Origin: Patescibacteria group bacterium
GTDB taxonomy: Bacteria > Patescibacteriota > Patescibacteriia > Patescibacteriales > GWC2-42-12
Reading direction: 5' to 3'
Assembly: GCA_028707005.1 (NCBI GenBank)
Contig: JAQTVB010000011.1
Location: 1 to 36,555, forward strand
Length of the DNA: 36,555 nucleotides
The notes beneath the pieces were generated by a model. The model had not been told where the DNA came from. It saw only the letters and a program-made list of their open reading frames with translations, and did not search any database. This document shows, one piece after another, positions 3,230 to 36,555 of the stretch. The translations under genes and the position numbers were made by a program. Position 1 is the first letter of the stretch. Each line of letters starts with the position of its first letter.

Positions 3230-3655
3230 TTATGGATTACCGTCAACTACGCCGCTCTCTCCTCCCGGCAAACTGCTAAACACAAAATAAGTGATTGAAT
3301 AAGCCGCCACGATTATTATCAAGCCAATCACCGCTCTGGTTAAAGTATTTTTCGCCAAAGACACTTTTTCTTCATCGCCTCCGGCGGTCATCAAGCTGAA
3401 GCCGGCATAGATGATTAAAACGATAAAAATTATCCCCAATAAACCTAAAAAAGCGCTCACCGCGTATCTGATTATGTCGGGCAAACCGGTTGAGCCGGCG
3501 GTCGGAACTTCGCCCCAGGCTTTATTGCCCGCCGAGTCCATTTGATTATACAAGTCGTTTTTAGTGCCGGCTTGGCCAGGCGATAAAAAAAATAAAAAAC
3601 TAAAAACAATGATTAATAAACCGCTTACCGTGAATTTAAAATATTTTGTAAACAT
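3230..3655 (-). CDS. T4SS pilin-like small membrane protein, copy 1
   Basis: Member of the CPR family resembling VirB2/TrbC pilins (T4SS_pilin). The members of this array share a signal peptide, a variable exported stretch, a first membrane helix, a short loop with G(D/N)E(E/D)KV..AK and a second membrane helix. Here there are 141 residues, a signal peptide ending near residue 29 (GQA), helices at about 66-86 and 106-126, and the loop AGGDEEKV at 91-98. It lacks the Trp of the usual (N/K)WM before the loop (FSLM instead), which sets it apart. It is last in the array and ends in a Gly-rich tail. VirB2-type pilins polymerise into conjugative pili. Here the role is inferred only. Confidence 0.75.
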   Translation of the reverse strand: MFTKYFKFTVSGLLIIVFSFLFFLSPGQAGTKNDLYNQMDSAGNKAWGEVPTAGSTGLPDIIRYAVSAFLGLLGIIFIVLIIYAGFSLMTAGGDEEKVSLAKNTLTRAVIGLIIIVAAYSITYFVFSSLPGGESGVVDGNP

Positions 3656-3689
3656 ATTTAAAGCTCCCCTGATTCAATGATTAAAATTT

Positions 3690-4097
3690 TTATTTCATGA
3701 TATTTGTTCCCGCGAGCAAACTGCCAAACACCCAATAGCTTATGGCGTAAGCGCCGATCGTCACGATCAAACCGATGACCGCGCGCTGAATCGTATCTTT
3801 GGCTTTAGTTACCTTTTCCTCATCGCCCTGGGCGACCATCCAGTTATAGCCGGCGTAAATTATATAAACTAAAAATAATACTCCCAAAAGTCCCAGGAAA
3901 GCCTGAATGATAATGCCTACAATACCGGCTAGATCGTTTGAACCGGTAGTGATATTCTGATAAGGCGCGTTAGACAAGCCGGCGCCGACCTTGTTTAAAC
4001 TGTCGCTGGCCGAACTGGCAGCTAAAACCAGAGATGGCAGAACCAACAGCGCCATCAAACAGACAAAAACTAAGACATGTTTTAATATTTTTTTCAT
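3690..4097 (-). CDS. T4SS pilin-like small membrane protein, copy 2
   Basis: A 135-residue paralogue from the ATG at 4097, which has GCAGGA just upstream. An in-frame GTG at 4115 is less likely. The signal peptide ends at VLAA (about 26). The first helix is followed by YAGYNWMVAQGDEEKV, then KAKDTIQRAVIGL and the second helix. It is closest to copies 3 and 4, sharing the YNWM.AQG loop. Its start overlaps no neighbour, and 34 bases separate it from copy 1. Confidence 0.75.
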   Translation of the reverse strand: MKKILKHVLVFVCLMALLVLPSLVLAASSASDSLNKVGAGLSNAPYQNITTGSNDLAGIVGIIIQAFLGLLGVLFLVYIIYAGYNWMVAQGDEEKVTKAKDTIQRAVIGLIVTIGAYAISYWVFGSLLAGTNIMK

Positions 4098-4124
4098 ACA
4101 TCCTGCGTTCTGCACTGTTTAATA

Positions 4125-4583
4125 TTAAGATTGATATACGTTCAGCTGCCCGCTGTCGCTCACGCTTTTCAAGGTTCCCGCTTCTATCCTGGACATAACA
4201 AAAACGCTGATCGCGTAAGCGGCAACTATAATGATCACGCCTACTATGGCCCGCTTAATCGTGTCTTTGGCTTTTTGCACCTTCTCCTCTTCCCCCTCGG
4301 CCGTAAGCCAATTATAACCGGCAAACAATATATAGGCTAGAAGCAAAACCCCGATCACGCTTAAGAATATATTAATCACGGTCTGAACCAAGGTGAGAGC
4401 GCTGTCGGCCGTGCTTGTTTCATAACCGGCGGTATTAGCCAAACCCTGCGTGCCGTTATTCATATTGGTTGTCGTGTTGCTGTTTAAAAACTTGCCAGCG
4501 CTTGCCGGACCGGCCATAAGCGCCATGGCCAGTAAAAAAGTCGCGGTGAAAAATTGAACGCCAATAAACAATCTCCTCGTCAT
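4125..4583 (-). CDS. T4SS pilin-like small membrane protein, copy 3
   Basis: A 152-residue paralogue. The signal peptide ends with PASAG (about 30), followed by an Asn/Thr-rich exported stretch (NSNTTTNMNNGTQ) longer than in its neighbours. Helices flank FAGYNWLTAEGEEEKV, with KAKDTIKRAIVGV following. The C-terminus extends by about 20 polar residues past the second helix. It begins 4 bases after copy 4's stop, which implies one transcript. Confidence 0.75.
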   Translation of the reverse strand: MTRRLFIGVQFFTATFLLAMALMAGPASAGKFLNSNTTTNMNNGTQGLANTAGYETSTADSALTLVQTVINIFLSVIGVLLLAYILFAGYNWLTAEGEEEKVQKAKDTIKRAIVGVIIIVAAYAISVFVMSRIEAGTLKSVSDSGQLNVYQS

Positions 4584-4587
4584 AATT

Positions 4588-4968
4588 TTATTTTAATAAC
4601 TTTTCAAAAAGAAACGCCCAAGAGGCATAAGCCCCGACTATAATAATTATGCCGATAATGGTTTGGATGATAATACTCTTGGCTTTGCCTACTTTTTCCT
4701 CATCGCCTTGCGCCGTCATCCAGTTATAGCCGGCAAAAAGCATCAGCCCCAAAAAAACTATGCCGATCAAACCCAGGGCGATGCCGACCACATTGCCAAC
4801 AATGCTTACCAGCGTGTCATTATTGGCCTGCGCGTAGGGTCCGGTGCTGGCCGCCACATTATCTAATACATTAAGCGGCGGATTATTGCCGGCCAAAACC
4901 AATTGCGGCAACAATAATAAAACGACTAAACAGACAGATAACATTATTTTTTTGCTAGTTTCTAACAT
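4588..4968 (-). CDS. T4SS pilin-like small membrane protein, copy 4
   Basis: At 126 residues this is the shortest paralogue. The signal peptide ends at VLAG (about 27). The loop is FAGYNWMTAQGDEEKV, then GKAKSIIIQTIIGI and a second helix ending almost at the C-terminus (FEKLLK). The variable exported part is correspondingly short. Confidence 0.75.
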   Translation of the reverse strand: MLETSKKIMLSVCLVVLLLLPQLVLAGNNPPLNVLDNVAASTGPYAQANNDTLVSIVGNVVGIALGLIGIVFLGLMLFAGYNWMTAQGDEEKVGKAKSIIIQTIIGIIIIVGAYASWAFLFEKLLK

Positions 4969-4994
4969 TTTATTGCATTTTTTGAATTAGCCGA

Positions 4995-5498
4995 TTATTT
5001 AAAAACTAGGCCGCCAATGGCTGCCACGACAAACCGAACAATCGCGTAAGCGGCTAAAACAACAACTATCCCGATAATAGCATTAATAAGAGTTTTTTTG
5101 GCTTTTTCCACCGTCTCTTCATTGCCCCCGGCCATCATCCAGCTATAACCGCCGTAAATCGCCAAAATCAAGAAAATCACGCCCATTAACTCAAGCACCA
5201 TGGTAATGACCTTGCTGATGATAGTGGGGAAAGAAGCCGAGGTATTATAGCCGGATCCCTGGACGGCCACGGCGTTAAGCGGCATATTGGCTCCGGTATC
5301 AAAGGCGTTGCCTATGCCAGTGGCTGATTGATTTGTCGCGCTACTACCGGCGGAAGTCCCTGCCGCGGCCGCGTCAGGATTAGGATAAGTATACGTGTCA
5401 TAAGCCAAAGCCGGAGTCATGAAAAACACCAGTAAAACAGGTAGAAAAAATAAAGAAAAAATCGGCTTAAATCCCTTTATTTTGCAACAAATTCCCAT
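4995..5498 (-). CDS. T4SS pilin-like small membrane protein, copy 5
   Basis: A 167-residue paralogue, the longest. The signal peptide ends near ALA (about 32), then comes a 60-residue Ala/Gly/Ser/Thr-rich exported segment. The helices flank YGGYSWMMAGGNEETV, then EKAKKTLINAIIGI. Its ATG lies inside the 3' end of copy 6 (22-base overlap in another frame), which suggests translational coupling. Confidence 0.75.
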   Translation of the reverse strand: MGICCKIKGFKPIFSLFFLPVLLVFFMTPALAYDTYTYPNPDAAAAGTSAGSSATNQSATGIGNAFDTGANMPLNAVAVQGSGYNTSASFPTIISKVITMVLELMGVIFLILAIYGGYSWMMAGGNEETVEKAKKTLINAIIGIVVVLAAYAIVRFVVAAIGGLVFK

Positions 5499-5860
5499 AA
5501 AGGTATGATTAATTTTGAAATCGCAAAAGCGGAAAACACAACTACAATAGCAATTAAAGTATTAATAATAATAGTCTTGGCTTTCTCTACCTGCTCCTCA
5601 TTGCCCCGCGCCATCATCCAGGTAAACCCGCCGTAAAGAATGATAATGGTCGCAATCACGCCCATCATCATGGGAGTTAAAAAACTGCCTAGTAATTTCA
5701 CTAAAAAATTCCCCGGATTAGTAACCGCCGCATAGCCCATGCCGGTCTCGCCGGCATTCTTTAAACCGTTGTCAAAACTAGAGCTGGCCAAAACCGATCC
5801 AGCTTGAATAACCAAGACTGAAAGAACTAGCAGTATGAAAAATATATATAAAATTCTCAT
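5477..5860 (-). CDS. T4SS pilin-like small membrane protein, copy 6
   Basis: A 127-residue paralogue. The signal peptide ends at VLAS (about 25). The loop is YGGFTWMMARGNEEQV, then EKAKTIIINTLIAI. It overlaps copy 5 at its 3' end. Confidence 0.75.
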   Translation of the reverse strand: MRILYIFFILLVLSVLVIQAGSVLASSSFDNGLKNAGETGMGYAAVTNPGNFLVKLLGSFLTPMMMGVIATIIILYGGFTWMMARGNEEQVEKAKTIIINTLIAIVVVFSAFAISKLIIPLWEFVAK

Positions 5861-5916
5861 AAACAGCGCTGTTATTCGCTCGCCCTTCCAGGAGTCTTCC
5901 CTGTTTATTAAATAAC

Positions 5917-6318
5917 CTACTTAGTCGCGTTAGTTATAATTTCAGCTATCACCTTGGTAATCGCGTAAGCGCCTAAAATTACTATCAAACCCAAAACCGC
6001 GCCGAAGATTGTTTCCTTGGCTGTTTTAATTTCTTCTTCATTGCCCTTGGCCAGCATCCAGCCGAAGCCGGCCCATAAAATCAAACAGAAAAAAACCACG
6101 CCCACAAAAGCTAAAATCGCGCCCACGACCTTGCCGATAATCATGGGCAGATCGGTTTGCGTGGATTTCACCCCGCCGGCGTTGGCCGTGGTATTTAAGT
6201 TGGTAAGCGCATTATTAATCCCGGTCGTATCAGCCAAAGCCGCCGGCGCCACCATGAAAAACGAAAAGGCCATTGCCAAGCAGGCAAATATTATGATGGA
6301 TTTTGAGGATAAAGGCAT
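5917..6318 (-). CDS. T4SS pilin-like small membrane protein, copy 7
   Basis: A 133-residue paralogue counted from the ATG at 6318 (MPLSSKSIII), which gives a proper signal peptide ending at ALAD (about 30). An upstream GTG at 6363 would put 15 charged residues ahead of it. The helices flank WAGFGWMLAKGNEEEI and KTAKETIFGAVLGL. Position 6 of the loop motif is Ile instead of Val. Confidence 0.75.
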   Translation of the reverse strand: MPLSSKSIIIFACLAMAFSFFMVAPAALADTTGINNALTNLNTTANAGGVKSTQTDLPMIIGKVVGAILAFVGVVFFCLILWAGFGWMLAKGNEEEIKTAKETIFGAVLGLIVILGAYAITKVIAEIITNATK

Positions 6319-6417
6319 AAATAAATTTTCAATAAAAAATTCTCTATCCGCTACTCTGCCCACGAACCCTTGCTCCTGCGCAGAGTGGCGGCTCCCAAAA
6401 TAATTGAGAGCGCGCTT

Positions 6418-6439
6418 TTTTTAATACCGGTATTAAAAA
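6418..6439. repeat. TTAATACCGGTATTAA palindrome, copy 1
   Basis: A perfect self-complementary 22-bp palindrome with no loop, just after the stop of pilin copy 8. The same core recurs at 7063-7078 after copy 9, so it was duplicated together with the gene. It could be a protein-binding site or a weak terminator. Confidence 0.7.
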
Positions 6440-6441
6440 TA

Positions 6442-6864
6442 CTAGGTAGTAGGAGGAATGCCCGTAGCAGTAAGCAGATTGTCTATAACAAACGTCGCGA
6501 TGCCCCAGGAGGCTAATATAATCACCAAACCGACGACTCCGGCAATAATGAGCTTCTTGGCTTCACCAACCTTGTCTTCGTTTCCTCCGCCAGTCATCCA
6601 TTTAAAGCCGCCCAATAAAATGATTACCACCGCGATGATGCCCAAAAAGCCCAAAATCACGTTAATAACCGAAGCGGCGATGGCGCGCGGATCTCTATTG
6701 CCCAAACCAATCGTATTTCCTATGCTGTTTACGTCCGCATTATTCGCGGCCTCTCCCCAGCCCGTGGTTACCGCCTGAACCGGCAAAGCCACTGCAAAAA
6801 CCGGCGTAAGCATAAACAAAGCCATGGCCAAGACCACGATTTTCTTCAACAATTTTTCTTTCAT
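6442..6864 (-). CDS. T4SS pilin-like small membrane protein, copy 8
   Basis: A 140-residue paralogue with an excellent ribosome-binding site (AGGAGGTG, 4 bases before ATG), rare in this window and a sign of strong expression. The signal peptide is followed by a short exported segment. From DPRAIAAS to the end it is almost identical to copy 9, and the DNA match extends into the upstream region and the downstream palindrome. The loop is GGFKWMTGGGNEDKV. The first two genes of the array are therefore a recent tandem duplication. Confidence 0.78.
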   Translation of the reverse strand: MKEKLLKKIVVLAMALFMLTPVFAVALPVQAVTTGWGEAANNADVNSIGNTIGLGNRDPRAIAASVINVILGFLGIIAVVIILLGGFKWMTGGGNEDKVGEAKKLIIAGVVGLVIILASWGIATFVIDNLLTATGIPPTT

Positions 6865-7027
6865 TTTTCACCTCCTGTCTGTACAAACACTAATCCGAAC
6901 GAATGGAAATTCATATAATTAATCCGGTTCATTATTAGTGTTATTAAATAATAAAGCATTAATGTCAAATTATAAAATTTCTCCGCTGCTCTGCGCGCAA
7001 ATCTAAATTTATATTCAGGGCAGCGGT

Positions 7028-7050
7028 CCCCCACCGCATTGCGGTGGGGG
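7028..7050. terminator. GC-rich hairpin downstream of pilin copy 9
   Basis: A perfect 10-bp stem CCCCCACCGC/GCGGTGGGGG with a 3-base loop. On the minus strand it lies just past the stop of copy 9 but lacks a following T run there, while on the plus strand CTTTTTC follows. It may pause transcription or stabilise the 3' end, so that copy 9 is expressed more than the distal genes. Confidence 0.5.
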
Positions 7051-7062
7051 ACAAGCTTTTTC

Positions 7063-7078
7063 TTAATACCGGTATTAA
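7063..7078. repeat. TTAATACCGGTATTAA palindrome, copy 2
   Basis: Exact second copy of the 16-base palindrome at 6421-6436, again a few bases after a pilin stop codon. Confidence 0.7.
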
Positions 7079-7084
7079 AAAATA

Positions 7085-7510
7085 TTAGGTAGCGGGGGTG
7101 CCCGTGGCAGTAAGCAGTCCGTTTATAACAAACGTCGCGATACCCCAGGAGGCTAATATAATCACTAAGCCGATAACTCCGGCGGTGATTAATTTCTTGG
7201 CTTCGCCAACCTTGTCTTCGTTTCCTCCGCCAGTCATCCATTTAAAGCCGCCCAATAAAATGATTACCACCGCGATGATGCCTAAAAAGCCCAAAATCAC
7301 GTTAATAACCGAAGCGGCGATGGCGCGCGGATCAGTACTGCCCAAACCAACGGCAGCCCCTACGGCATCATGGTTTCCTCCCGATGCGTCATCTCCCCAG
7401 CCAGTTACATCAGCCGCCAAAACTGGCAGCGTTGAAAAAACCAAGGCTGGCGTTAATACTAATAAAGCCATGGCCAATGCCACAATCTTTTTCATTAATT
7501 TTCCTTTCAT
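7085..7510 (-). CDS. T4SS pilin-like small membrane protein, copy 9 (first transcribed)
   Basis: A 141-residue paralogue with signal peptide about 1-33, exported stretch 34-60, first helix 66-86, loop GGFKWMTGGGNEDKV (87-101) and second helix 108-128. It has a strong ribosome-binding site (GGGAGGTG, 4 bases before ATG). Position and duplication with copy 8 suggest these two are the major subunits. No VirB4, VirB6 or other T4SS gene is in the window, so whether the array makes a pilus, a secretion channel or another surface structure is open. Confidence 0.78.
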   Translation of the reverse strand: MKGKLMKKIVALAMALLVLTPALVFSTLPVLAADVTGWGDDASGGNHDAVGAAVGLGSTDPRAIAASVINVILGFLGIIAVVIILLGGFKWMTGGGNEDKVGEAKKLITAGVIGLVIILASWGIATFVINGLLTATGTPAT

Positions 7511-10515: not shown

Positions 10516-13467
10516 ATGATGACCACTTCTTATTATTCCCGCAACATCAAATCTCCTCAAAGCTGGCGCAGCCCCAGGAAAAAATATTTCTTAAAAAAGG
10601 GCAGAAGAACCGCGGCGGCTTACGGCAACAACGGCAAGCTAAAGGAGTATTCAAACAAAAAGGGCAAGCCATTCAATCGGGCCAAGCTCGCCAAAACGTT
10701 ATTTTATGGCTTGCTGGTCTTTTTGCTTTTTTGTTTTGGCGCTTATCTGCAGCTGACCCGCGGCCTGCCGGACCCCAACCGCCTGATTGACCGCCAAGTG
10801 GCGCAAAGCACAAAAATTTATGACCGCACCGGAGAGACCATCCTTTATGAAATCCACGGCGACGAAAAGCGCACCATGGTAAGCCTAAAAGACATTCCGG
10901 ACAACTTAAAAAACGCCACTATCGCCATTGAAGACAAAGATTTTTATAAGCACAGCGGCTTCAGCCTTTGGGCAATCTTCCGCACGCTGGTAACCGACGT
11001 TTTGTTCGGTAAAAAAGCCGGCGCCTCCACGCTTACCCAGCAGTTCATCAAGAACGCGGTCTTAACCAACGAAAAAACTTTCACCAGAAAAATCAAAGAG
11101 ATAATCTTGGCTTACCGGCTGGAAAAAAAATTCTCCAAAGACGAAATTCTGCAGATGTACTTTAACGAGATTCCCTACGGCTCAACCGCTTACGGCGTGG
11201 AAGCGGCCAGCCAGCTTTATTTCGGCAAAAGCGCGCGCGACTTGGATCTGGCCGAGTCGGCCGTCTTGGCCGCCATCCCGCAAGCGCCCAGCCGCTACTC
11301 GCCTTACGGCCCCAACAAAGACCTGCTGCTCGCCAGACAAAAATATATCTTGGATCTGATGGCTAAATACGGCTACATCGCCAAAGACCAGGCCGAGGCA
11401 GCGAAAAAAGCCGCCGTAATTTTTAAAAAACCGTCCGACAATATGCTAGCGCCGCACTTTGTCATGTACATCAAAGAACTCTTGGCGGATCAATACGGCG
11501 AAAAAACCATTGAGCAGGGCGGTTTAAAAATTTATACCACCCTGGATCTTTATAAGCAAAAAATCGCGGAAGAAGTCATTAAAGAAAAAGCCGAGGCCAA
11601 TGCAAAAAAATACCAGGCTTCAAACGCCGCTCTGGTTTCAATTGATCCCAAGACCGGGCAAATTCTGGCCATGGTGGGATCAAAAGATTATTTCAACGAT
11701 GAAATCGACGGGCAGGTAAACGTGGCGCTGCAGCCCAGACAGCCGGGCTCGTCGTTTAAGCCCATTGTTTACGCCGCCGCGTTTATTAAGGGCTATACGC
11801 CGGAAACCGTGCTTTATGACGTGGTAACGAATTTTTCCACCGATCCGGCCAAACCCTATCAACCGCATAACTATGATTCAAAAGAACACGGCCCGGTGAC
11901 AATCCGGCAAGCTTTGGCCGGCTCCTTGAACATCCCGGCGGTGAAAGCGATTTATTTAACCGGCATTGACAACGTTTTAAGCCTGGCGCAAAACCTGGGC
12001 TATTCCACGCTTAACGACAGGAGCCGCTTCGGCCTGTCTTTGGTCTTGGGCGGCGGCGAAGTGAAATTGTTGGAACATGCCAATGCTTTCAGCGCCTTTG
12101 CCCGCGAAGGTTTAAAACACCCGCTCGCTTTTATATTAAAAGTGGAAGATAAGGACGGCAAAGTGCTGGAAGAATTTAAGAACCAGGATGAAAAAATTTT
12201 AAACGACGAAGTCGCGCGCCAAATCAACAGCATCCTATCGGACAATTCCGCTCGCGCCTACATCTTCGGCGAAAATAACTTTCTTACCCTGGGTTCCAGG
12301 CCGGTGGCGGCGAAAACCGGCACCACCAACGATTACCGCGACGCCTGGACCATCGGCTACACTCCGTCAATCGTTACCGGCGTCTGGGTGGGCAACAACG
12401 ATAATAAAGAGATGAAGCGCGGCGCCGATGGTTCGGTGGTAGCCGCGCCGATCTGGCATGACTACATGAACAGAGTTTTGGGCGATACGCCGATTGAATA
12501 TTTCAAGGCGCCGGAAGCGGCGCCCACGGGCAAGCCGATTTTAGACGGCGCGGCCAACCCAGGCGCGACCGTAAAAATTGATAAATTTTCCGGCTATTTA
12601 GCCAACGAATACACGCCGCCAAGCGCGGTTATAGAAAAACAATTCGGCCAGGCGCATTCCATTCTTTTTTACGTGGACAAAGACAACCCGGCCGGTCCGG
12701 CGCCGGCTAACCCGGCAAGCGACCCGCAATTCACTTTATGGGAAAGCGCGATTTCTGATTGGGCGAAAAAACAAGGTATTGTTAACGCCGCCCCGCCCAC
12801 CGAATTTGACAATGTGCACCGTCCCGCGTATCAGCCGGTGTTCACGATTGACTACCCGGTCAATAACCAAACCGTAAGCAACCAATATTTAGACGCGAGA
12901 ATTACCGCCAGCGCGACCAATGGCGTTAACCGCGCCGAATATTATATTGACGGTTATTTAACCGACACCGTAACCGCCGCCCCGTTTAACTTTAACAAGT
13001 ACATCGCCTTTTTAGATAACGGTTCTCATGATTTAATGGTGCGCGTCTGCGATGCGATTGACAATTGCAGCGAAAAAAAGATTGGATTCAATGTGGCGCA
13101 AAATCCTAAACAGGAAAAGGCGAATCTTAATATCGCTTTAACCCTGCCCGCGCCCAACACTGATTTTCTGAAAAAAGATTTTCCCCTGCCTTTGAAGGCC
13201 GAGGTCAACAACCCGGAACAAACGGCCGGCGTCACTTTTATTTGTAAAAACTCCGCCGGCGATGTTGAGCAAACCGCGCCGGGCCAAATTAAGGGCAAAA
13301 CCGCGCAAGGTTCGCTTACGACCATTTTACGGTCCGGTTCATATAAATTATACGCCGAAGCCCGCGGCTGGCGGGGCCAAACGGCCAAGAGCGATGAAAT
13401 CAATATCAACATTAAAGATCTAACGCCGGTGGTCGCTTCCACCACGCCCGCGGCGGTTACTCAATAA
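10516..13467 (+). CDS. Bifunctional class A penicillin-binding protein (PBP1A-like)
   Basis: This enzyme polymerises and crosslinks peptidoglycan. The 983 residues comprise a basic cytoplasmic tail (1-58), a membrane helix (about 60-82), a GT51 transglycosylase domain with EDKDFYKHSG (catalytic Glu139) and STLTQQFIKN (171-180), and a transpeptidase domain with SSFK (Ser412 nucleophile), SLN (470-472) and KTGTTNDY (600-607). A long C-terminal extension (about 780-970) has an Ig-like segment (HDLMVRVCDAIDNCSEK). ATG occurs twice in a row at the start and the first is used here. The Ig-like extension, found in many CPR PBPs, may contact the wall or partners. All catalytic residues are present. 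Confidence 0.95.
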   Translation: MMTTSYYSRNIKSPQSWRSPRKKYFLKKGRRTAAAYGNNGKLKEYSNKKGKPFNRAKLAKTLFYGLLVFLLFCFGAYLQLTRGLPDPNRLIDRQVAQSTKIYDRTGETILYEIHGDEKRTMVSLKDIPDNLKNATIAIEDKDFYKHSGFSLWAIFRTLVTDVLFGKKAGASTLTQQFIKNAVLTNEKTFTRKIKEIILAYRLEKKFSKDEILQMYFNEIPYGSTAYGVEAASQLYFGKSARDLDLAESAVLAAIPQAPSRYSPYGPNKDLLLARQKYILDLMAKYGYIAKDQAEAAKKAAVIFKKPSDNMLAPHFVMYIKELLADQYGEKTIEQGGLKIYTTLDLYKQKIAEEVIKEKAEANAKKYQASNAALVSIDPKTGQILAMVGSKDYFNDEIDGQVNVALQPRQPGSSFKPIVYAAAFIKGYTPETVLYDVVTNFSTDPAKPYQPHNYDSKEHGPVTIRQALAGSLNIPAVKAIYLTGIDNVLSLAQNLGYSTLNDRSRFGLSLVLGGGEVKLLEHANAFSAFAREGLKHPLAFILKVEDKDGKVLEEFKNQDEKILNDEVARQINSILSDNSARAYIFGENNFLTLGSRPVAAKTGTTNDYRDAWTIGYTPSIVTGVWVGNNDNKEMKRGADGSVVAAPIWHDYMNRVLGDTPIEYFKAPEAAPTGKPILDGAANPGATVKIDKFSGYLANEYTPPSAVIEKQFGQAHSILFYVDKDNPAGPAPANPASDPQFTLWESAISDWAKKQGIVNAAPPTEFDNVHRPAYQPVFTIDYPVNNQTVSNQYLDARITASATNGVNRAEYYIDGYLTDTVTAAPFNFNKYIAFLDNGSHDLMVRVCDAIDNCSEKKIGFNVAQNPKQEKANLNIALTLPAPNTDFLKKDFPLPLKAEVNNPEQTAGVTFICKNSAGDVEQTAPGQIKGKTAQGSLTTILRSGSYKLYAEARGWRGQTAKSDEININIKDLTPVVASTTPAAVTQ

Positions 13468-30686: not shown

Positions 30687-30715
30687 TTGACAATTAAATA
30701 GATGAAAGGGATAAG
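30687..30715 (+). promoter_or_regulatory. Possible promoter of the Csx3-fusion gene
   Basis: TTGACA (30687-30692), a 17-base spacer and GATAAG (30710-30715). It would leave a 175-base leader containing the hairpin GTCATGC...GCATGAC near 30764-30803. Confidence 0.5.
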
Positions 30716-30896: not shown

Positions 30897-32096
30897 ATGA
30901 GAATCGTCTTTGGTGGACCAAAGCATTCCGGCAAGTCGGTACTGCTATGGTATCTTAAGAAACTCGTAGCGGCCGTAGGCGACTATATGCCGCTCCGATG
31001 CGCCCCTGACGGTGAGGGGGACTGGACTCAAGAACTCTATCTGACACAGCCCGATCTGGCGCTTGAAATCCGCCAGAAAGGACAGTTCTCGGAGGAGTTT
31101 GTGAGCTGGGCCGAAGGCGCGGTCAAAAACTGCGACTCTCGATTCGGGCTCATTGATGTCGGCGGAATCCCTTCTGCCGAAAACAAACGAATCTGCAAGC
31201 ATGCGGATGCTTTGGTCATCGTGATCTCCGACCAGTACGGTCAGGAGACGCACGAACTTTGGGTTCAATTTGCCAAGGAATTGGGATTGAAAGTCCTTGG
31301 TACGGTACACTCCACCCTTAACTCTGTTGAGGAGTGGAGTAAGACAAATTCTGACAGCAAGTTTGAAGGCCTTGCTGTTGGGTTGGACAGAAAAACCTTC
31401 AAGGGTTCCATAACAGTGGAAACTCTCGCAAAATTCCTGACAGAAAAAACAAAAACAGAAAAGAAAGAAAAACAGATGAACACAATCACAATCGCGCAAA
31501 TCGCCAGTATGATCGGAAAACAGCCGGGGCCAATTAGCTTGCCTGGTGGCAAGACGATTACCGGTCTGGATTGGAAGCCGGAAGAGCTTCCCATGGTCGA
31601 AGCGGCTCTCAAGCCGTTCTCGGCAATGGGGACTCCCTGGTTCGTGGATGGTGCAGGCCCGCAGTGGCTCATCGCGTGCATCACGCACGCTTTGCATCCC
31701 TGCTCGGTGGCGCTCGCCGACTCCAAGGTGGAGGGCGGGCAGGTGCAAATCGGCGAGCGAAAGCTCCCCGAAGGCACTGGTAAGGGTGACCTAACCTTCT
31801 CCGTTGAGGAGAAGGAGGCGGGGGCGATAGTCCGGTACCAATCGGCGAACCCGATTGATTTTCGGAAGCTCTCGGAGCTCGTCCCACCGGCGACTACGCA
31901 GGGCAAGTCAGTTTTTCTGAACGGACGAACGGCGACCTGGGGTGTGGTAGAGATTGCCGCGTGCTACCAGCATGTGGTGCCTGCGGTCTTCGTTGGCCAG
32001 CCCATGGGAGCGGCGGGTTACTGCTATGTCTGCGCCATTACCCACTCGCCCGACATCAAAGTTGGGTCCGTGGTGAAAGAGGCAGACCTGAAGTAG
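30897..32096 (+). CDS. csx3: P-loop ATPase fused to two Csx3-like domains
   Basis: A 399-residue protein from the ATG at 30897, which has AAAGGA 5 bases upstream (an earlier in-frame start would add 65 atypical residues). N-terminal domain (1-180): P-loop GGPKHSGKS (6-14), RCAPDGEGDW and a Walker-B-like LIDVGG, as in the ATPase fused to Csx3 in some cyanobacteria. After a Lys/Glu linker come two Csx3-type domains. The first (about 210-285) keeps DGAGPQW, ITHALHP and ALAD. The second (about 298-395) has GKSVFLNGRTATW and AITHSPDIKVGSVV but lacks the acidic DPR-type segment. Csx3/Crn3 degrades cyclic tetra-adenylate made by type III CRISPR systems. No cas gene or array is visible here, so the ligand is unknown. 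Confidence 0.8.
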   Translation: MRIVFGGPKHSGKSVLLWYLKKLVAAVGDYMPLRCAPDGEGDWTQELYLTQPDLALEIRQKGQFSEEFVSWAEGAVKNCDSRFGLIDVGGIPSAENKRICKHADALVIVISDQYGQETHELWVQFAKELGLKVLGTVHSTLNSVEEWSKTNSDSKFEGLAVGLDRKTFKGSITVETLAKFLTEKTKTEKKEKQMNTITIAQIASMIGKQPGPISLPGGKTITGLDWKPEELPMVEAALKPFSAMGTPWFVDGAGPQWLIACITHALHPCSVALADSKVEGGQVQIGERKLPEGTGKGDLTFSVEEKEAGAIVRYQSANPIDFRKLSELVPPATTQGKSVFLNGRTATWGVVEIAACYQHVVPAVFVGQPMGAAGYCYVCAITHSPDIKVGSVVKEADLK

Positions 32097-32514
32097 TCTC
32101 CCGGCCGAAAAACACCAGACGAAAGTTTGGTTGGGAGAAAATCCGCTCCTGTCAAAAAAGGTAAAATGGCTTTTTGTGTTAAGCCAGCTTGCAAGAGCTT
32201 AATTTGAACACTCCTTGATTGGTGGAGGTTAATCAGTCGGGTTAGCAGGAATGGTTTCCTGCCGTTGCTAAAGCGAAAGCCGAAGCAAAAGGAGAATACG
32301 TCAATTTCTCCTACTTCTTGAGCTTGTGATTTTATAATCATCGGCTCATTGGTAGTCTTGGCCATAGCGGTTTGTTTCTGATAATCCGGGAGCGGACTGC
32401 TATGACTAAGATAATTAAAAGTTTTGTAAGGCGTTTTTTAAACGCCTTGTCGGAATACTATAATAGCATCCCGACACTTGAGGATCTCTGGTTGGATTGG
32501 GGTCCTTAGAATTT
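32097..32514 (+). ncRNA. Structured non-coding space after the Csx3 fusion
   Basis: The 418 bases hold a series of hairpins and no supported gene: CTCCC/GGGAG (about 32099-32142) around CCAGAC-GAAA-GTTTGG (GNRA-type loop, one G-T), TGGCTT/AAGCCA near 32167-32186, and GCAGGAA/TTTCCTGC near 32243. Beyond two-hairpin motif A lie a 12-bp stem CATAGCGGTTTG/CGGACTGCTATG near 32363-32404 with three G-T pairs, and AAGGCGTTT/AAACGCCTT near 32428-32448. The wobble pairs favour plus-strand RNA. TATAAT at about 32459 may start the next gene's transcript. Confidence 0.55.
32291..32348 (+). repeat. Two-hairpin RNA motif, copy A
   Basis: Hairpin I is GGAGAA/TTCTCC (32291-32311), the linker is TACTTC, and hairpin II begins TTGAGCTTGTGATT and closes with AATCATCGGCTCA (32318-32348). 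See copies B, C and D. Confidence 0.8.
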
Positions 32515-32994
32515 ATGAGTACAAAAACGCTAGGCCGGCTGAAGTCCGGCGAACAAGTGGTTGATCGCGAGATCAGCCACATTCACGCAAGCGCAAAGGC
32601 AGGTCTTGCCGAAGCGTTAGCGCGCATTGATTCGCTCGGACATGAGCGGATCAAGGAAACGATTGATCTCGGCCGAGTAATCGGCCGGTCAAATTGCGTT
32701 TCCACAGGCGACGGCGACGAGATCGTCTTCGCTCAAAGGGTGAATCGGCCAGGTCTTTCAAGGTTCGCAAAGAATCGAGAACCGGAGCCGACCTCAAAAC
32801 TCACAATTAAGCTGCATCGTCTCGCTGATGGTAAGTACGAAGTTCGTACTGCTTATATTGGGGAAGCCGGTGTGGCCGAGCCGTGGGATGAGGAAAAAAA
32901 ATCGACTTCAATCCCTTTTTGGAACGCGCACGCGTTCTGCTGGGGATATGAGCCGGTTGTGGTTGGCTCGGAGACTGAAAAGTGTCCGTGGTAA
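32515..32994 (+). CDS. Unknown protein, possibly an RNase-fold (BECR-like) domain
   Basis: A 159-residue soluble protein from ATG 32515 (a TTG 18 bases upstream is less likely). I cannot name it firmly. A helical N-terminus (HIHASAKAGLAEALARIDSL) is followed by DEIVFAQRVNRPGLSRFAKN, then strands TIKLHRLADGKYEVRTAYIG, EPWDEE and FWNAHAFCWG. The order 'DEIv.A.R...L.RF', a strand ending TAYIG and PWD...FW..HA recalls uncharacterised proteins and domains compared with barnase-EndoU-colicin-RelE nucleases. That link is weak. If true it would be the effector of the module. Two-hairpin motif B starts 6 bases after its stop. Confidence 0.6.
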   Translation: MSTKTLGRLKSGEQVVDREISHIHASAKAGLAEALARIDSLGHERIKETIDLGRVIGRSNCVSTGDGDEIVFAQRVNRPGLSRFAKNREPEPTSKLTIKLHRLADGKYEVRTAYIGEAGVAEPWDEEKKSTSIPFWNAHAFCWGYEPVVVGSETEKCPW

Positions 32995-32999
32995 TCAAA

Positions 33000-33076
33000 G
33001 GAGGAACAGGTGTGCGGTAACGCCTATCTGCTCCTCCCCATTTTTGAGTTCGTAAGATTTATTCTTGCGGATTCAA
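33000..33076 (+). repeat. Two-hairpin RNA motif, copy B
   Basis: Hairpin I is GGAGGA/TCCTCC with an inner GCG-GTAA-CGC stem (33000-33037), the linker is CCATTT, and hairpin II begins TTGAGTTCGTAAGA and closes with TCTTGCGGATTCAA (33044-33076), fully paired with three G-T or T-G pairs. Confidence 0.85.
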
Positions 33077-33084
33077 AGAGTGGG

Positions 33085-33138
33085 GTGTTCATGCAATTTG
33101 TTGCTAACTATAAGGTTGGCAATAGGTTGCATGAACAC
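33085..33138 (+). promoter_or_regulatory. Hairpin hiding the start codon of the next gene
   Basis: GTGTTCATGCAA (33085-33096) pairs perfectly with TTGCATGAACAC (33127-33138), which contains the ATG at 33131. The inner stem TTGCTAACT/AGGTTGGCAA (33101-33122) lengthens it. In this fold translation would be blocked. Confidence 0.7.
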
Positions 33139-34456
33139 TACTACAAAATTGACCTTTGGGTCCGGTCGCTTCGGTTCGACCGTTACTAATAATCGAAACG
33201 AGATTGTAGTTGGACGATTCAATCGTCCAACGAAGCTCGTTGACTCCCGGAAGGATGTATTATTGTGCCTGCCGGAGTCGAACAACGCGTGGGATAAGGG
33301 TTATCCTACGCACCAAGAGAGCTGGTTGGCTCTTGCGTTCGTAATCGCTTGCCATAGCAAGCATCACGATCAGAACGGTTTGGCAATCCGGAAAGTGGCT
33401 TACCATTTCCGTATTCCGGATGTGCAGTGGCCGGTGTTGGCTGCGAAAGCGGTCGAGTTTGCCAGCGAGTTCCGCCAGAGATTGGCAGAACCCGGACTTT
33501 CGAGCCGCAAGGCTTTCAAGTCTGCCACTCGCGCTTTGCAGGATTGTTTGCTCTACGCGGTCACACGGGAGTTCCCGGCTGACCAGGATGTATTTCTGGC
33601 CGCTTCTCCGATAAATCCGCTCATCGAGAGGGCAAATCGGGGACGAGCCGGAGAGCTTTCGCACGCCGAAGGGCTGGAGCTTGCGAACGAGATCGACCAC
33701 GAGGTCGAGAAACTCGTTGTGAGTTTCGGCGGGATTGAAAAGTGCCGTAAGGCACTAGACTGTCTCAAAGAGTATTACCGACCGGATGGTCGGGTGATAC
33801 TTCTTCCCGAAAGTATTACCCTCGAACAGGGTGCCGAACTGGTGTCATTTGACATCATCCTCGGTACACCAGACGCTCATGACATGGATGTTGTGAGTGT
33901 GGCAGAGGGAACTAAAGAACCCCGATTGGTTCAACTCAGGGACGAAATTTCCGGTCAGCGTATGGATATCATCCAAGTTTCACCGGAACTCGGTCCAAAG
34001 GATGAACTTATTGGTGGTCATCGGCCGTTTCAGTCAGTAGCAGAGATGCTGCTGGCTAATGGCCGCGCAATTTCGACCGAAGGTAAGGTGCTTTTCGCCC
34101 GTCTTCAGGGGCAGGTTAATCCTGCCGAGTTGGCCAAAAAATACCGGAAGGTAGCGAAGGAGTTTTTCTCCAACGCTTCTGATCGGAAAAGCTGGGTCAG
34201 TCGGCGAGCGGCCGGTACTTCGGTGCCGCAGGTCAAAAAGGTGCTCCCGTTATATAGGATCGCCTGCGACCTGCTACCCCGTGCTTCTTTCATGGAGCAA
34301 AGGGGAGAGTTCACTGGAGGTATTTCACCCGAGAAGTTGGCTGATGAAGCCAGTCTTGGTGATACCTTTCGAAAAATCCGTAATGTTCTTGATCGCCAGG
34401 ACGCAACGGAACAAGAGTTGGAGACGATCGCCGCGGAAATCGAGTGCAAACTCTAG
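33131..34456 (+). CDS. Large protein of unknown function in the accessory module
   Basis: A 441-residue, apparently soluble protein that I do not recognise. I chose ATG 33131 (MNTTTKLTFGSGRF), since the preceding in-frame codons run through hairpins. Its beginning is beta-rich (VTNNRNEIVVGRFNRPTKLV), the middle (about 60-200) is helical with ALAFVIACHSKHHDQNG, and a segment KEYYRPDGRVILLPESITLE precedes another mixed region. The C-terminal third is strongly charged and helical. There is no Walker, nuclease or membrane signature. Its conserved place between the candidate effector and the AAA+ ATPase suggests a structural or adaptor role. The start codon is embedded in a 12-bp hairpin, and only a weak AGG precedes it. 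Confidence 0.7.
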   Translation: MNTTTKLTFGSGRFGSTVTNNRNEIVVGRFNRPTKLVDSRKDVLLCLPESNNAWDKGYPTHQESWLALAFVIACHSKHHDQNGLAIRKVAYHFRIPDVQWPVLAAKAVEFASEFRQRLAEPGLSSRKAFKSATRALQDCLLYAVTREFPADQDVFLAASPINPLIERANRGRAGELSHAEGLELANEIDHEVEKLVVSFGGIEKCRKALDCLKEYYRPDGRVILLPESITLEQGAELVSFDIILGTPDAHDMDVVSVAEGTKEPRLVQLRDEISGQRMDIIQVSPELGPKDELIGGHRPFQSVAEMLLANGRAISTEGKVLFARLQGQVNPAELAKKYRKVAKEFFSNASDRKSWVSRRAAGTSVPQVKKVLPLYRIACDLLPRASFMEQRGEFTGGISPEKLADEASLGDTFRKIRNVLDRQDATEQELETIAAEIECKL

Positions 34457-34587: not shown

Positions 34588-34839
34588 ATGGATAGATCTT
34601 TTAAAGAACTTCGGCTCCGAGCGGTATTTGTTCTTCGGCTTTCCGACGAAGTCCGCAAGGAGTTCATCGGAATCGCCAGGGAAAAATCGCCGTCGGCAGG
34701 TTTTAATCTCGCTCTGATTGCCGCGCAAGTGCACGGCATAGTAGGCATGGAGGCGATCGCCGTGGCCAAAGCCACGAGGTGGCTGGCTATGATTCGTCGT
34801 GATCATGGCGTGCAGGTATTTGAACAAGTAGTCGCGTAA
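34588..34839 (+). CDS. Small helical protein of unknown function
   Basis: 83 residues, not recognised. It starts at an ATG preceded by AAAGGA 6 bases upstream. The sequence (FVLRLSDEVRKEFIGIAREK, then AGFNLALIAAQVHGIVGMEA) is mostly helical with a hydrophobic middle but no clear membrane span. It lies just after motif C and before another small gene, with both followed by motif D and the AAA+ gene. Confidence 0.6.
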   Translation: MDRSFKELRLRAVFVLRLSDEVRKEFIGIAREKSPSAGFNLALIAAQVHGIVGMEAIAVAKATRWLAMIRRDHGVQVFEQVVA

Positions 34840-35080: not shown

Positions 35081-35151
35081 GGGGAATGCCAAGAAATTCT
35101 CCACTTTATTGAGTTCGCGATTATCCGCTTTGCGGAATAATCATTGGCTCA
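35081..35151 (+). repeat. Two-hairpin RNA motif, copy D
   Basis: Hairpin I is GGGGAAT/ATTCTCC (35081-35102), the linker is ACTTTA, and hairpin II begins TTGAGTTCGCGATTATCCGC and closes with GCGGAATAATC...CTCA (35109-35151). Its outer part (TGAG, a T-G/T-G/C-T/G-T internal run, GATT/AATC) mirrors copy A. Confidence 0.85.
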
Positions 35152-35224
35152 TAGAGTATCTCACTCTATTAAAAGCGAGGCGGCATTAAATAGGTGGCCG
35201 GAAAATACCAGTGGAGGAATCGTC

Positions 35225-36436
35225 ATGGCAAATGACATCCTTGATTTAGGTGTGCAGATCGCGCCGAAAGCGTCGGCTTTGATGGCGGACGTGGCGGTGC
35301 GGAACATTGGTCGCGAGACGATCGTGCGGGCAACCATGCTCGCGCTTATCTCCGGCCGACCGGCTTTTTTCCTGGGTTCGCCCGGGATCAACAAGACCGG
35401 GACGGTGCAAGACATCGCCAAGCGGATTGACGGGGCTTTGTTTTACGATGCCCTGATGCCTACCATTGTTTCGGTTGAACAACTTATCGTGGAGAGTACC
35501 TCCATTGAAGAGCAGTCATCCGAAAATGGTGGCAAGTCGATTCGCACCAGCGATACACTTGGCCGAGCTGCCAAAGCACACATTCTGTTTGCCGATGAGA
35601 TTTGGAAAGCGGAGCCTCGAGTTCTGCAAACCGTTCTCGACTTGGCAAAAGGCGATGGTGTGCGGCACGAGGGGCGGATGGTGAAAACCCCGTTGCTCGC
35701 GTTTGTGGCGGCTTCAAATGAGCTTCCGGATTCGGAAGGAAACCTCCAAGCGATGTGGTCTCGAATGACCATTCGCGCCGAGGTGAAATCCTTGGACCGC
35801 GCGGGAAAGAAAAATCTCGTGGCGGCCAGGCTCAATCGGGCGCAAGCCGGTAAATCGGCAGCGCCAACCGCAACCCTGACGCTCGCTGAAGTGGAAACGC
35901 TTCGCGAAGTTCGTCCGTTCGTGGAAGTTAGCGATGAGATCGTCGAGATTACGCTCGACCTCTATCAGCAACTTCTCGATGGAGACAATGCGGGGTTTGC
36001 GTGGTTGTGGGCCGATGATCGCAGGTTCGGACGAGTCTTTGATGTTTTGCAGGCCAACGCTCTTCTTGACGGGAGAGTGAGGGTTAGCAAGCAGGACCTT
36101 CGAACGCTGGAGTATTTGCTTTGGGATACGCCCGAGCAGATCGCTACAGTGAAGGCGAAAATCGCGCCGCTCTGCCGGACGCCTTTGTCGGATGCGCAGG
36201 AAGTGTTTGACACTCTGTTTGCGCCGGCGGGTGTGGTGGCGGAAGTGTTGGCTGGTGACCGCAACAAAATCGTGGCGGCTATCACCCAATTCGAAGAGAC
36301 CGAGAAAGAACTCGGTCGTCTCGCTAGCGAGGCGAGTCAAGACGAAAAAACCAAGATTGCCGACCTGCTCGCTAAGGTTGGTGAAGAGAAACAGAACGCC
36401 GTTGCCAAGATTCTTGGCGCCAAGCGTTCAAAGTAG
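35225..36436 (+). CDS. RavA/MoxR-family AAA+ ATPase
   Basis: A 403-residue ATPase. ATG 35225 is preceded by GGAGG at a good distance (an earlier in-frame start is inside motif D). Motifs: Walker A GSPGINKT (as in RavA GPPGIAKS, third Gly absent), Walker B HILFADEIWKA, sensor 1 LAFVAASNELP and QAMWSRMTIRAEVKSL, matching the RavA pattern closely. The C-terminal third is helical and charged (TEKELGRLASEASQDEKTK). MoxR ATPases act with VWA-domain partners to load or remodel protein complexes. The next gene, cut by the window end, is a candidate partner. Confidence 0.85.
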   Translation: MANDILDLGVQIAPKASALMADVAVRNIGRETIVRATMLALISGRPAFFLGSPGINKTGTVQDIAKRIDGALFYDALMPTIVSVEQLIVESTSIEEQSSENGGKSIRTSDTLGRAAKAHILFADEIWKAEPRVLQTVLDLAKGDGVRHEGRMVKTPLLAFVAASNELPDSEGNLQAMWSRMTIRAEVKSLDRAGKKNLVAARLNRAQAGKSAAPTATLTLAEVETLREVRPFVEVSDEIVEITLDLYQQLLDGDNAGFAWLWADDRRFGRVFDVLQANALLDGRVRVSKQDLRTLEYLLWDTPEQIATVKAKIAPLCRTPLSDAQEVFDTLFAPAGVVAEVLAGDRNKIVAAITQFEETEKELGRLASEASQDEKTKIADLLAKVGEEKQNAVAKILGAKRSK

Positions 36437-36447
36437 AAAGGAACGGA

Positions 36448-36555
36448 ATGAATACGAAAGTAAGCCCGCTAACGCGGCAAGAGCTTCAAAAACTCTTGGT
36501 CACGGACGCGGATGCTTTCACAGCGCTCCGCTTCCTTCGTCACCGCGAGCGCACC
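36448..36555 (+). CDS. Start of the next gene (partial), possible VWA partner
   Basis: An open frame from ATG 36448 to the window end (36 codons), beginning MNTKVSPLTRQELQKLLVTD. A good AAAGGAA lies 5 bases before the start, and the gene begins 11 bases after the ATPase stop, so it belongs to the same operon. The visible residues do not reveal a domain. A VWA protein is expected here from the usual MoxR-VWA pairing, but that is not shown by this fragment. Confidence 0.6.
   Translation, partial: MNTKVSPLTRQELQKLLVTDADAFTALRFLRHRERT

Follow-up and report, generated by a model that had tools for sequence, protein, structure and literature searches.

A tandem Csx3 protein with a P-loop NTPase domain in a CRISPR-less MoxR-vWA operon of a Patescibacteria group bacterium

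The stretch of DNA analyzed here, referred to as the window, consists of 36,555 nucleotides from a Patescibacteria group bacterium (contig JAQTVB010000011.1 of assembly GCA_028707005.1). Toward its end, a forward-strand open frame that runs from the ATG at 30897 to the stop codon at 32094-32096 encodes a protein of 399 residues (30897-32096, +). The mechanical open reading frame begins at 30702; the ATG at 30897 has an AAAGGA-like ribosome site and agrees with the start point of the relatives. Pfam, profile searches, an AlphaFold model, and PADLOC identify the product as an NTPase-Csx3-Csx3 protein of the PADLOC C3a67 AAA-Csx3 family. The P-loop NTPase domain (30897-31475, +; residues 1-193) carries the motifs GGPKHSGKS and CAPDGEGDW and has a SIMIBI-like predicted fold. 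It is followed by Csx3 unit 1 (31479-31781, +; residues ~195-295) and Csx3 unit 2 (31782-32093, +; residues 296-399), and an in-frame ATG at 31476 is a possible start of a free tandem-Csx3 protein. Far upstream, positions 3230-7510 of the window encode approximately nine small proteins (126-167 aa) of a single repeated type, secreted or membrane-located, which resemble pilin- or VirB2-like tandem paralogues.

Assignment of the two Csx3 units relies on sequence profiles and predicted structure. The Pfam family Cas_csx3 (PF09620) matches the C-terminal part of the protein in two stretches (E 1.5e-8; 34.8 bits, above the cut-off of 21), and the NCBIfam equivalog Crn3/Csx3 (TIGR02579) scores 25.8 bits, below its cut-off of 55.4 bits. 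With a 43-row profile of relatives, unit 2 matches the solved Csx3 structure 6vjg at E 7e-19. In the AlphaFold model of the 399-residue protein (mean pLDDT 89.7, pTM 0.73), the best structural match of residues 299-399 in the PDB is Csx3 with bound cA4 (6yud; Z 14.8, rmsd 1.6 over 93 residues). For unit 1, a profile of the corresponding rows matches the Archaeoglobus fulgidus Csx3 at 33 bits, the profiles of the two units align with each other in hhalign (95.7%, E 1e-8, 38 columns), and the AlphaFold model places the secondary structure elements in the same b-b-a-b-a-b-b order as in unit 2. Unit 2 thus resembles Csx3 in both sequence and structure, and unit 1, more weakly, in sequence and in the predicted order of its strands and helices. 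The pair of Csx3 units that the preliminary description placed in a single chain withstands a profile search of both repeats, with the weaker match in unit 1. A further match of the tandem profile is the C-terminal part of Cat1 (9mud), a TIR filament protein of CRISPR systems (E 1.2e-4).

The N-terminal domain, first described as a P-loop ATPase, is confirmed as a P-loop NTPase, and the ATPase of the cyanobacterial Csx3 fusions belongs to its family. Its predicted fold resembles MinD, ParA, and HypB of the SIMIBI class (Z about 12.5-14.5) rather than AAA+ proteins. A tree of the NTPase domain was set aside as evidence of descent; no descent is claimed, since the window protein sits on a very long branch with no starred clade.

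The protein belongs to a family that is already known. The PADLOC model C3a67, which we take to originate from Shah et al. 2019, describes a family named AAA-Csx3 that is catalogued among the accessories of type III CRISPR, and residues 3-393 align with positions 7-377 of its 382 (E 8.5e-37). The same model matches a Chloroflexus copy (E 1e-181), as well as each of the further NTPase-tandem relatives that were compared with it. The apparent novelty lies in the placement of the gene within a CRISPR-less MoxR-vWA operon. The preliminary description is partly supported as a whole; it missed both the family and the operon within the window. Searches of open-licence literature turned up no tandem Csx3 protein and no comparable Csx3-MoxR operon, which does not imply their absence from print.

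The linkage of the family to CRISPR varies with lineage. Among the Chloroflexota, an iterated local profile detects Cas10 at 19 of 31 tandem loci and at all 14 loci with at least 5 kb of upstream sequence, at a distance of 1.0-3.8 kb. Outside the Chloroflexota, Cas10 is present at none of 13 loci, eight of which have 5 kb upstream; one further row with Cas10 was kept apart from the 13. The window has no cas gene near the open reading frame. No Cas10 match exceeds the cut-off in any of the 11 genomes searched first, including this one (one sub-threshold match, in G013), and Cas1 is absent from this assembly and present in 3 of 15 carriers (G019, G412, and G440). The absence of CRISPR noted from the window thus extends across the assembled genome in the Cas10 and Cas1 searches, which show no sign of a type III locus nearby or elsewhere in the assembly. 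The protein could nevertheless be a normal accessory of a type III CRISPR locus that the assembly failed to capture, given that C3a67 is a CRISPR-derived model, that the Chloroflexota copies lie beside Cas10, and that the genome is a draft. Since this draft is 95.75% complete in 43 contigs, such a loss is possible but unlikely. With the eight Cas10-free loci, the 11 genomes lacking Cas10 above the cut-off, and the embedding of the gene in a different operon also against it, this explanation is very improbable.

Broader searches place these counts in context. In a set of 50 genomes selected for tandem-like proteins, Cas10 is matched in 32 (above the cut-off in 29), including the Omnitrophica carrier, in which Cas10 is on contigs other than that of the operon, and the proteobacterial carrier L028; among 31 other genomes or records of that set, Cas10 is present in 14. 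Csx3-like or tandem proteins occur in 7 of 379 genomes sampled from the phylum and the vWA protein in 4, of which G101 has the vWA without a Csx3 match. The two lists have G000, G110, and G412 in common, an overlap that is no independent test because both models were built from such loci.

The Csx3 gene is followed on the forward strand by five further genes. The first encodes a 165-aa protein of the phage family phrog_23674 (32497-32994, +; E 1.8e-19) with an uncertain start (TTG, or ATG at 32515). It is followed by a 463-aa protein with no assigned function and a homologue in Uhrbacteria (33065-34456, +; true start probably downstream of 33065), and by a small conserved protein of 83 aa (34588-34839, +) that has a homologue in G412. 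The fourth encodes a MoxR AAA+ ATPase (35144-36436, +; bpMoxR PF20030, Pfam E 6.6e-19), also with an uncertain start (TTG, or ATG at 35225). Adjacent to it are the first codons of the vWA partner gene (36448-36555, +), which runs off the end of the contig; the whole gene is found on contig C42 from this genome (E 4e-221), and the ends of the two contigs overlap by 188 bases with two mismatches. On C42, the vWA gene precedes a gene for a 219-aa protein with a homologue behind the vWA of Adlerbacteria (E 1e-37), a nucleotidyltransferase-HEPN pair that matches the PADLOC candidate PDC-M05 (L127:5898-6909), and then housekeeping genes. The Csx3 gene lies 1.5 kb past a tRNA-Asp gene, and at the Csx3 gene the GC content rises from 0.42 to 0.52; a search for insertion-marking direct repeats yielded no 16-mer in common between the tRNA-Asp side and C42. 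Pfam has no match in 32497-34456 or in the 219-aa gene and reveals no VMAP, iSTAND, FtsH, or beta-propeller domain. VMAPs are fast-evolving proteins.

A CRISPR-less operon that combines the Csx3 gene with MoxR, vWA, and the phrog_23674 domain is present here and in four further genomes, from an Uhrbacterium, an Omnitrophica, and two Patescibacteria. The order of Csx3 protein, phrog_23674 domain, 463-aa protein, MoxR, and vWA is also found in the Uhrbacteria locus L031, and MoxR and vWA genes lie behind the Csx3 protein in G110, the Adlerbacteria locus L093, and the Omnitrophica locus L069. The window MoxR is 61% identical to that of G110 and 67% identical to that of L093; the 463-aa protein shares 61% identity with the C-terminal portion of an L031 protein that begins with the phrog_23674 domain. 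In G110 and L093, the same domain forms the C-terminal end of the Csx3 protein, and in L069 it is fused behind the 83-aa protein. These fusions to the Csx3, 463-aa, and 83-aa proteins in relatives argue for a joint function. The 463-aa protein has no match in phages. TrmB/GNAT pairs recur near several Patescibacteria Csx3 loci and were rejected as operon members, as they look like common genes.

Several other copies occur in different surroundings. In G412, a single complete-looking Csx3 (L020:1483-1911) beside a separate NTPase gene (L110:6756-7412) is likely an unfused form. Tandem Csx3 proteins without the NTPase and with an extra C-terminal domain are encoded among ordinary genes at L010:9609-10481 and L011:9606-10478. 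The Clostridia tandem copies (L029, L030, L032, L046, and L058) have lysine at the H57 and H60 positions of unit 1 in the three rows checked; they adjoin a LysR regulator, with no Cas10 in the genomes searched. These loci were dismissed as instances of the same operon, as the neighbors they share are the LysR regulator and a 160-172 aa protein of no assigned function.

The phrog_23674 protein is a candidate effector, based on the predicted structure of its domain. The model of the 32497-32994 product has a pLDDT of 91.1 and no significant match in Foldseek. VIA-align returns two apicomplexan proteins without known function (Z 6.2 and 6.0) and the RNase A-like CdiA-CT toxin of Yersinia kristensenii (5e3e) at Z 6.0, a value below the comfort limit of the tool, with an rmsd of 2.3 over 76 residues; the next match has Z 3.6. 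There is no sequence match to the toxin. The CdiA-CT active-site residues are H175, T276, Y278, and R186 (PMC9086364). In the partner family, H30 and T118 are invariant and residue 120 is tyrosine or phenylalanine; provided that the alignment has no gap toward its end, T118 and Y120 coincide with the toxin residues T276 and Y278, and the domain has no clear counterpart of R186. An RNase A-like identity of the partner domain is thus a lead suggested by the fold match.

The distribution of this RNase A-like domain is wider than that of the operon. It occurs in 17 of the 379 phylum genomes, only two of which belong to the Csx3 set, and in G119 its gene stands before a bpMoxR gene, with no Csx3 gene within the 3.4 kb covered. 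In a scan of viral contigs, a single RNase A-like protein as query detected none and an alignment as query detected seven large-phage contigs. A link to jumbo-phage MoxR was discarded: the AAA gene beside an RNase A-like gene in Pectobacterium phage CBB does not encode the same MoxR, and the gene preceding it is not the vWA. The domain is also present, unannotated, in Persicobacter plasmids.

The two Csx3 units retain different residues, in a regular pattern. In Crn3, as the active site is portrayed in PMC7371418, cA4 sits between a 'D69 face' (S44, G45, R46, D69, and R71) and an 'H60 face' (H57, H60, and H80). By alignment, H264, H267, D275, and K277 of window unit 1 are equivalent to H57, H60, D69, and R71; the R46 position holds alanine and H80 is lost. 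In unit 2, R344, Q368, and H383 occupy the positions of R46, D69, and H80, with N44 and G45 also present; glutamine thus replaces D69, H57 is lost, and the H60 column holds glutamine with a histidine beside it. The canonical Crn3 set of H57, H60, H80, D69, and R71 is complete in neither unit and is divided between them. The complementary degeneracy suggested earlier was read correctly, with the amendments that unit 1 also lacks R46 and H80 and that unit 2 also lacks H57.

Counts over the family rest on a species-genome scan of 244 relatives, 80 of which were kept, and on a 46-row alignment reduced to 45 tandem rows by removal of L084. D69 is present in unit 1 of 41/45 rows and in unit 2 of 0/45, and H57 is present in unit 2 of 0/45, so the asymmetry holds family-wide. 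Unit 1 of the Chloroflexota retains D69 and R/K71 in 31/31 rows and R46 in 28/31, with H57 in 0/31 and H60 in 3/31. Outside the Chloroflexota, six of 13 rows retain both histidines (the window, L025, L026, L027, L028, and the viral L105). Three of the MoxR-vWA relatives (L018/G110, L031, and L093) have lost H57 and H60 from both Csx3 units, and catalysis therefore cannot be general among the MoxR-vWA relatives.

One alternative is that the protein is a functional ring nuclease with a single active side. Helped by the NTPase, it would destroy cyclic oligoadenylate or a related messenger in the manner of Crn3 and so serve as an off-switch or an anti-defence enzyme. The window, G057 (L025), and viral L105 proteins keep H57, H60, and D69 in unit 1, with R or K at position 71, and H80 in unit 2. 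The viral copy keeps this possibility alive because its residues suit an active enzyme, and a phage copy would suit an anti-defence role. Nonetheless, each pseudo-dimer holds half of the canonical residues, the window unit 2 has glutamine aligned at H60, and Crn3 activity is abolished by H60A or D69A alone (PMC7371418). The genome also has no Cas10 or SMODS source of a messenger, and we regard a working nuclease as unlikely.

The viral copy itself (L105:10001-11164) is a full NTPase-Csx3-Csx3 protein with the best-kept residues, on a 167-kb contig of a probable large phage; a DNA ligase and nucleotide kinases on this contig were named by eye. It is possibly an anti-defence ring nuclease. At the G057 locus, DHH-motif proteins on either side of the Csx3 gene (L025:7121-7897 and 11629-12852) are possible phosphodiesterases belonging to a nucleotide system.

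At the other extreme, the STAS-like Csx3 fold may be a dead scaffold that provides protein contacts in the MoxR-vWA assembly without a nucleotide ligand. The loss of the catalytic histidines in L018/G110, L031, and L093 is consistent with a scaffold. So are the statements of Kaur et al. 2020 (PMC7159879) that MoxR-vWA systems take up modules that are typically inactive, one of the combinations including Csx3. In contrast, a scaffold should have lost these residues altogether, and the window protein keeps H264, H267, D275, R344, and H383. A purely structural role is accordingly rather doubtful for the window copy.

The reading we prefer, with a probability that we judge about even, is that the protein regulates a MoxR-vWA conflict (defence-like) operon in response to a nucleotide. 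In its favor are the match to cA4-bound Csx3, the family-wide asymmetry, the gene order and fusions shared with relatives, the RNase A-like gene beside a bpMoxR gene in G119, the placement of T118 and Y120 in the fold match, and the neighboring PDC-M05 pair. We infer a ligand, packing, coupling, toxicity, and defence role for the module as follows. The two Csx3 units would pack as a pseudo-dimer, in which one face places the D69/R71-type half-site of unit 1 opposite R46/G45 of unit 2 and the other face combines H57/H60 of unit 1 with H80 of unit 2. Such a module may bind an asymmetric or oligo-adenylate-type nucleotide and would cleave it at most at one place. The NTPase could transmit binding or cleavage to the RNase A-like effector, which would be held or remodelled by the MoxR-vWA pair. 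This part of the operon may have arisen from a type III CRISPR accessory or have a common ancestor with one. Against a regulator stand the histidine losses in the three MoxR-vWA relatives, the weak RNase A-like match, the small overlap of the RNase A-like domain with the Csx3 set (two of 17 genomes), the presence of Cas10 elsewhere in the Omnitrophica genome, and the fact that no messenger or cyclase was found.

The suggestion in the preliminary description that the protein serves another nucleotide-signaling system stands in so far as the gene context points to a different system. It falls short with regard to SMODS cyclases, which are absent from 15/15 genomes searched, this one included; with no other cyclase found, the proposed alternative messenger has no identified source. 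A more elaborate form of the regulator is a CRISPR-free defence of Patescibacteria in which the composite half-site senses or trims the messenger, the NTPase and MoxR-vWA release the RNase A-like effector, and the phage copy is a counter-weapon. This scheme is tentative, and we hold it possible rather than probable.

Csx3 is usually regarded as a part of CRISPR systems. The Cas10-adjacent C3a67 copies lack the metal-side histidines, and several CRISPR-free Patescibacteria and phage copies keep them in one unit. This distribution raises the questions of whether an asymmetric Csx3 binds or cuts something other than cA4 and whether MoxR-vWA conflict systems recruit CRISPR messenger receptors. Since the Csx3 protein lies outside CRISPR in an apparent separate defence operon, the locus may show the reuse of a CRISPR signaling part. 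It also provides a candidate signaling defence for a bacterium with a minimal genome, where our searches detected no type III CRISPR.

Comparison with known systems highlights both shared and divergent features. The window protein has the same domain order as C3a67 AAA-Csx3 and matches it over the full length. The Chloroflexota members of that family lie beside Cas10 and lack H57, and almost always also H60, in unit 1, whereas the window copy has both and no Cas10. Crn3/Csx3 (A. fulgidus AF1864) has the same fold as unit 2, and its conserved residues are spread over two units here; Crn3 stacks as a homodimer with two full sites, while the window protein is one chain of unequal units with half of the residues. 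The cyanobacterial Csx3-AAA proteins of the Slr7080 type share the NTPase family (E 4e-13 for Synechocystis pSYSA and 5e-15 for a Nostoc plasmid). Their NTPase is located behind Csx3 within type III CRISPR loci; in the window, it precedes two Csx3 units. The CdiA-CT toxin of Y. kristensenii is a weak fold match at the Z of 6.0, and the window partner is not a secreted CDI domain. Consistent with the MoxR-vWA ternary systems in the account of Kaur et al. 2020 (PMC7159879), the operon combines bpMoxR and vWA with variable third parts. It differs from these systems in that Pfam finds none of the VMAP, iSTAND, FtsH, or beta-propeller components and in that its Csx3 has an NTPase of its own and an RNase A-like protein.
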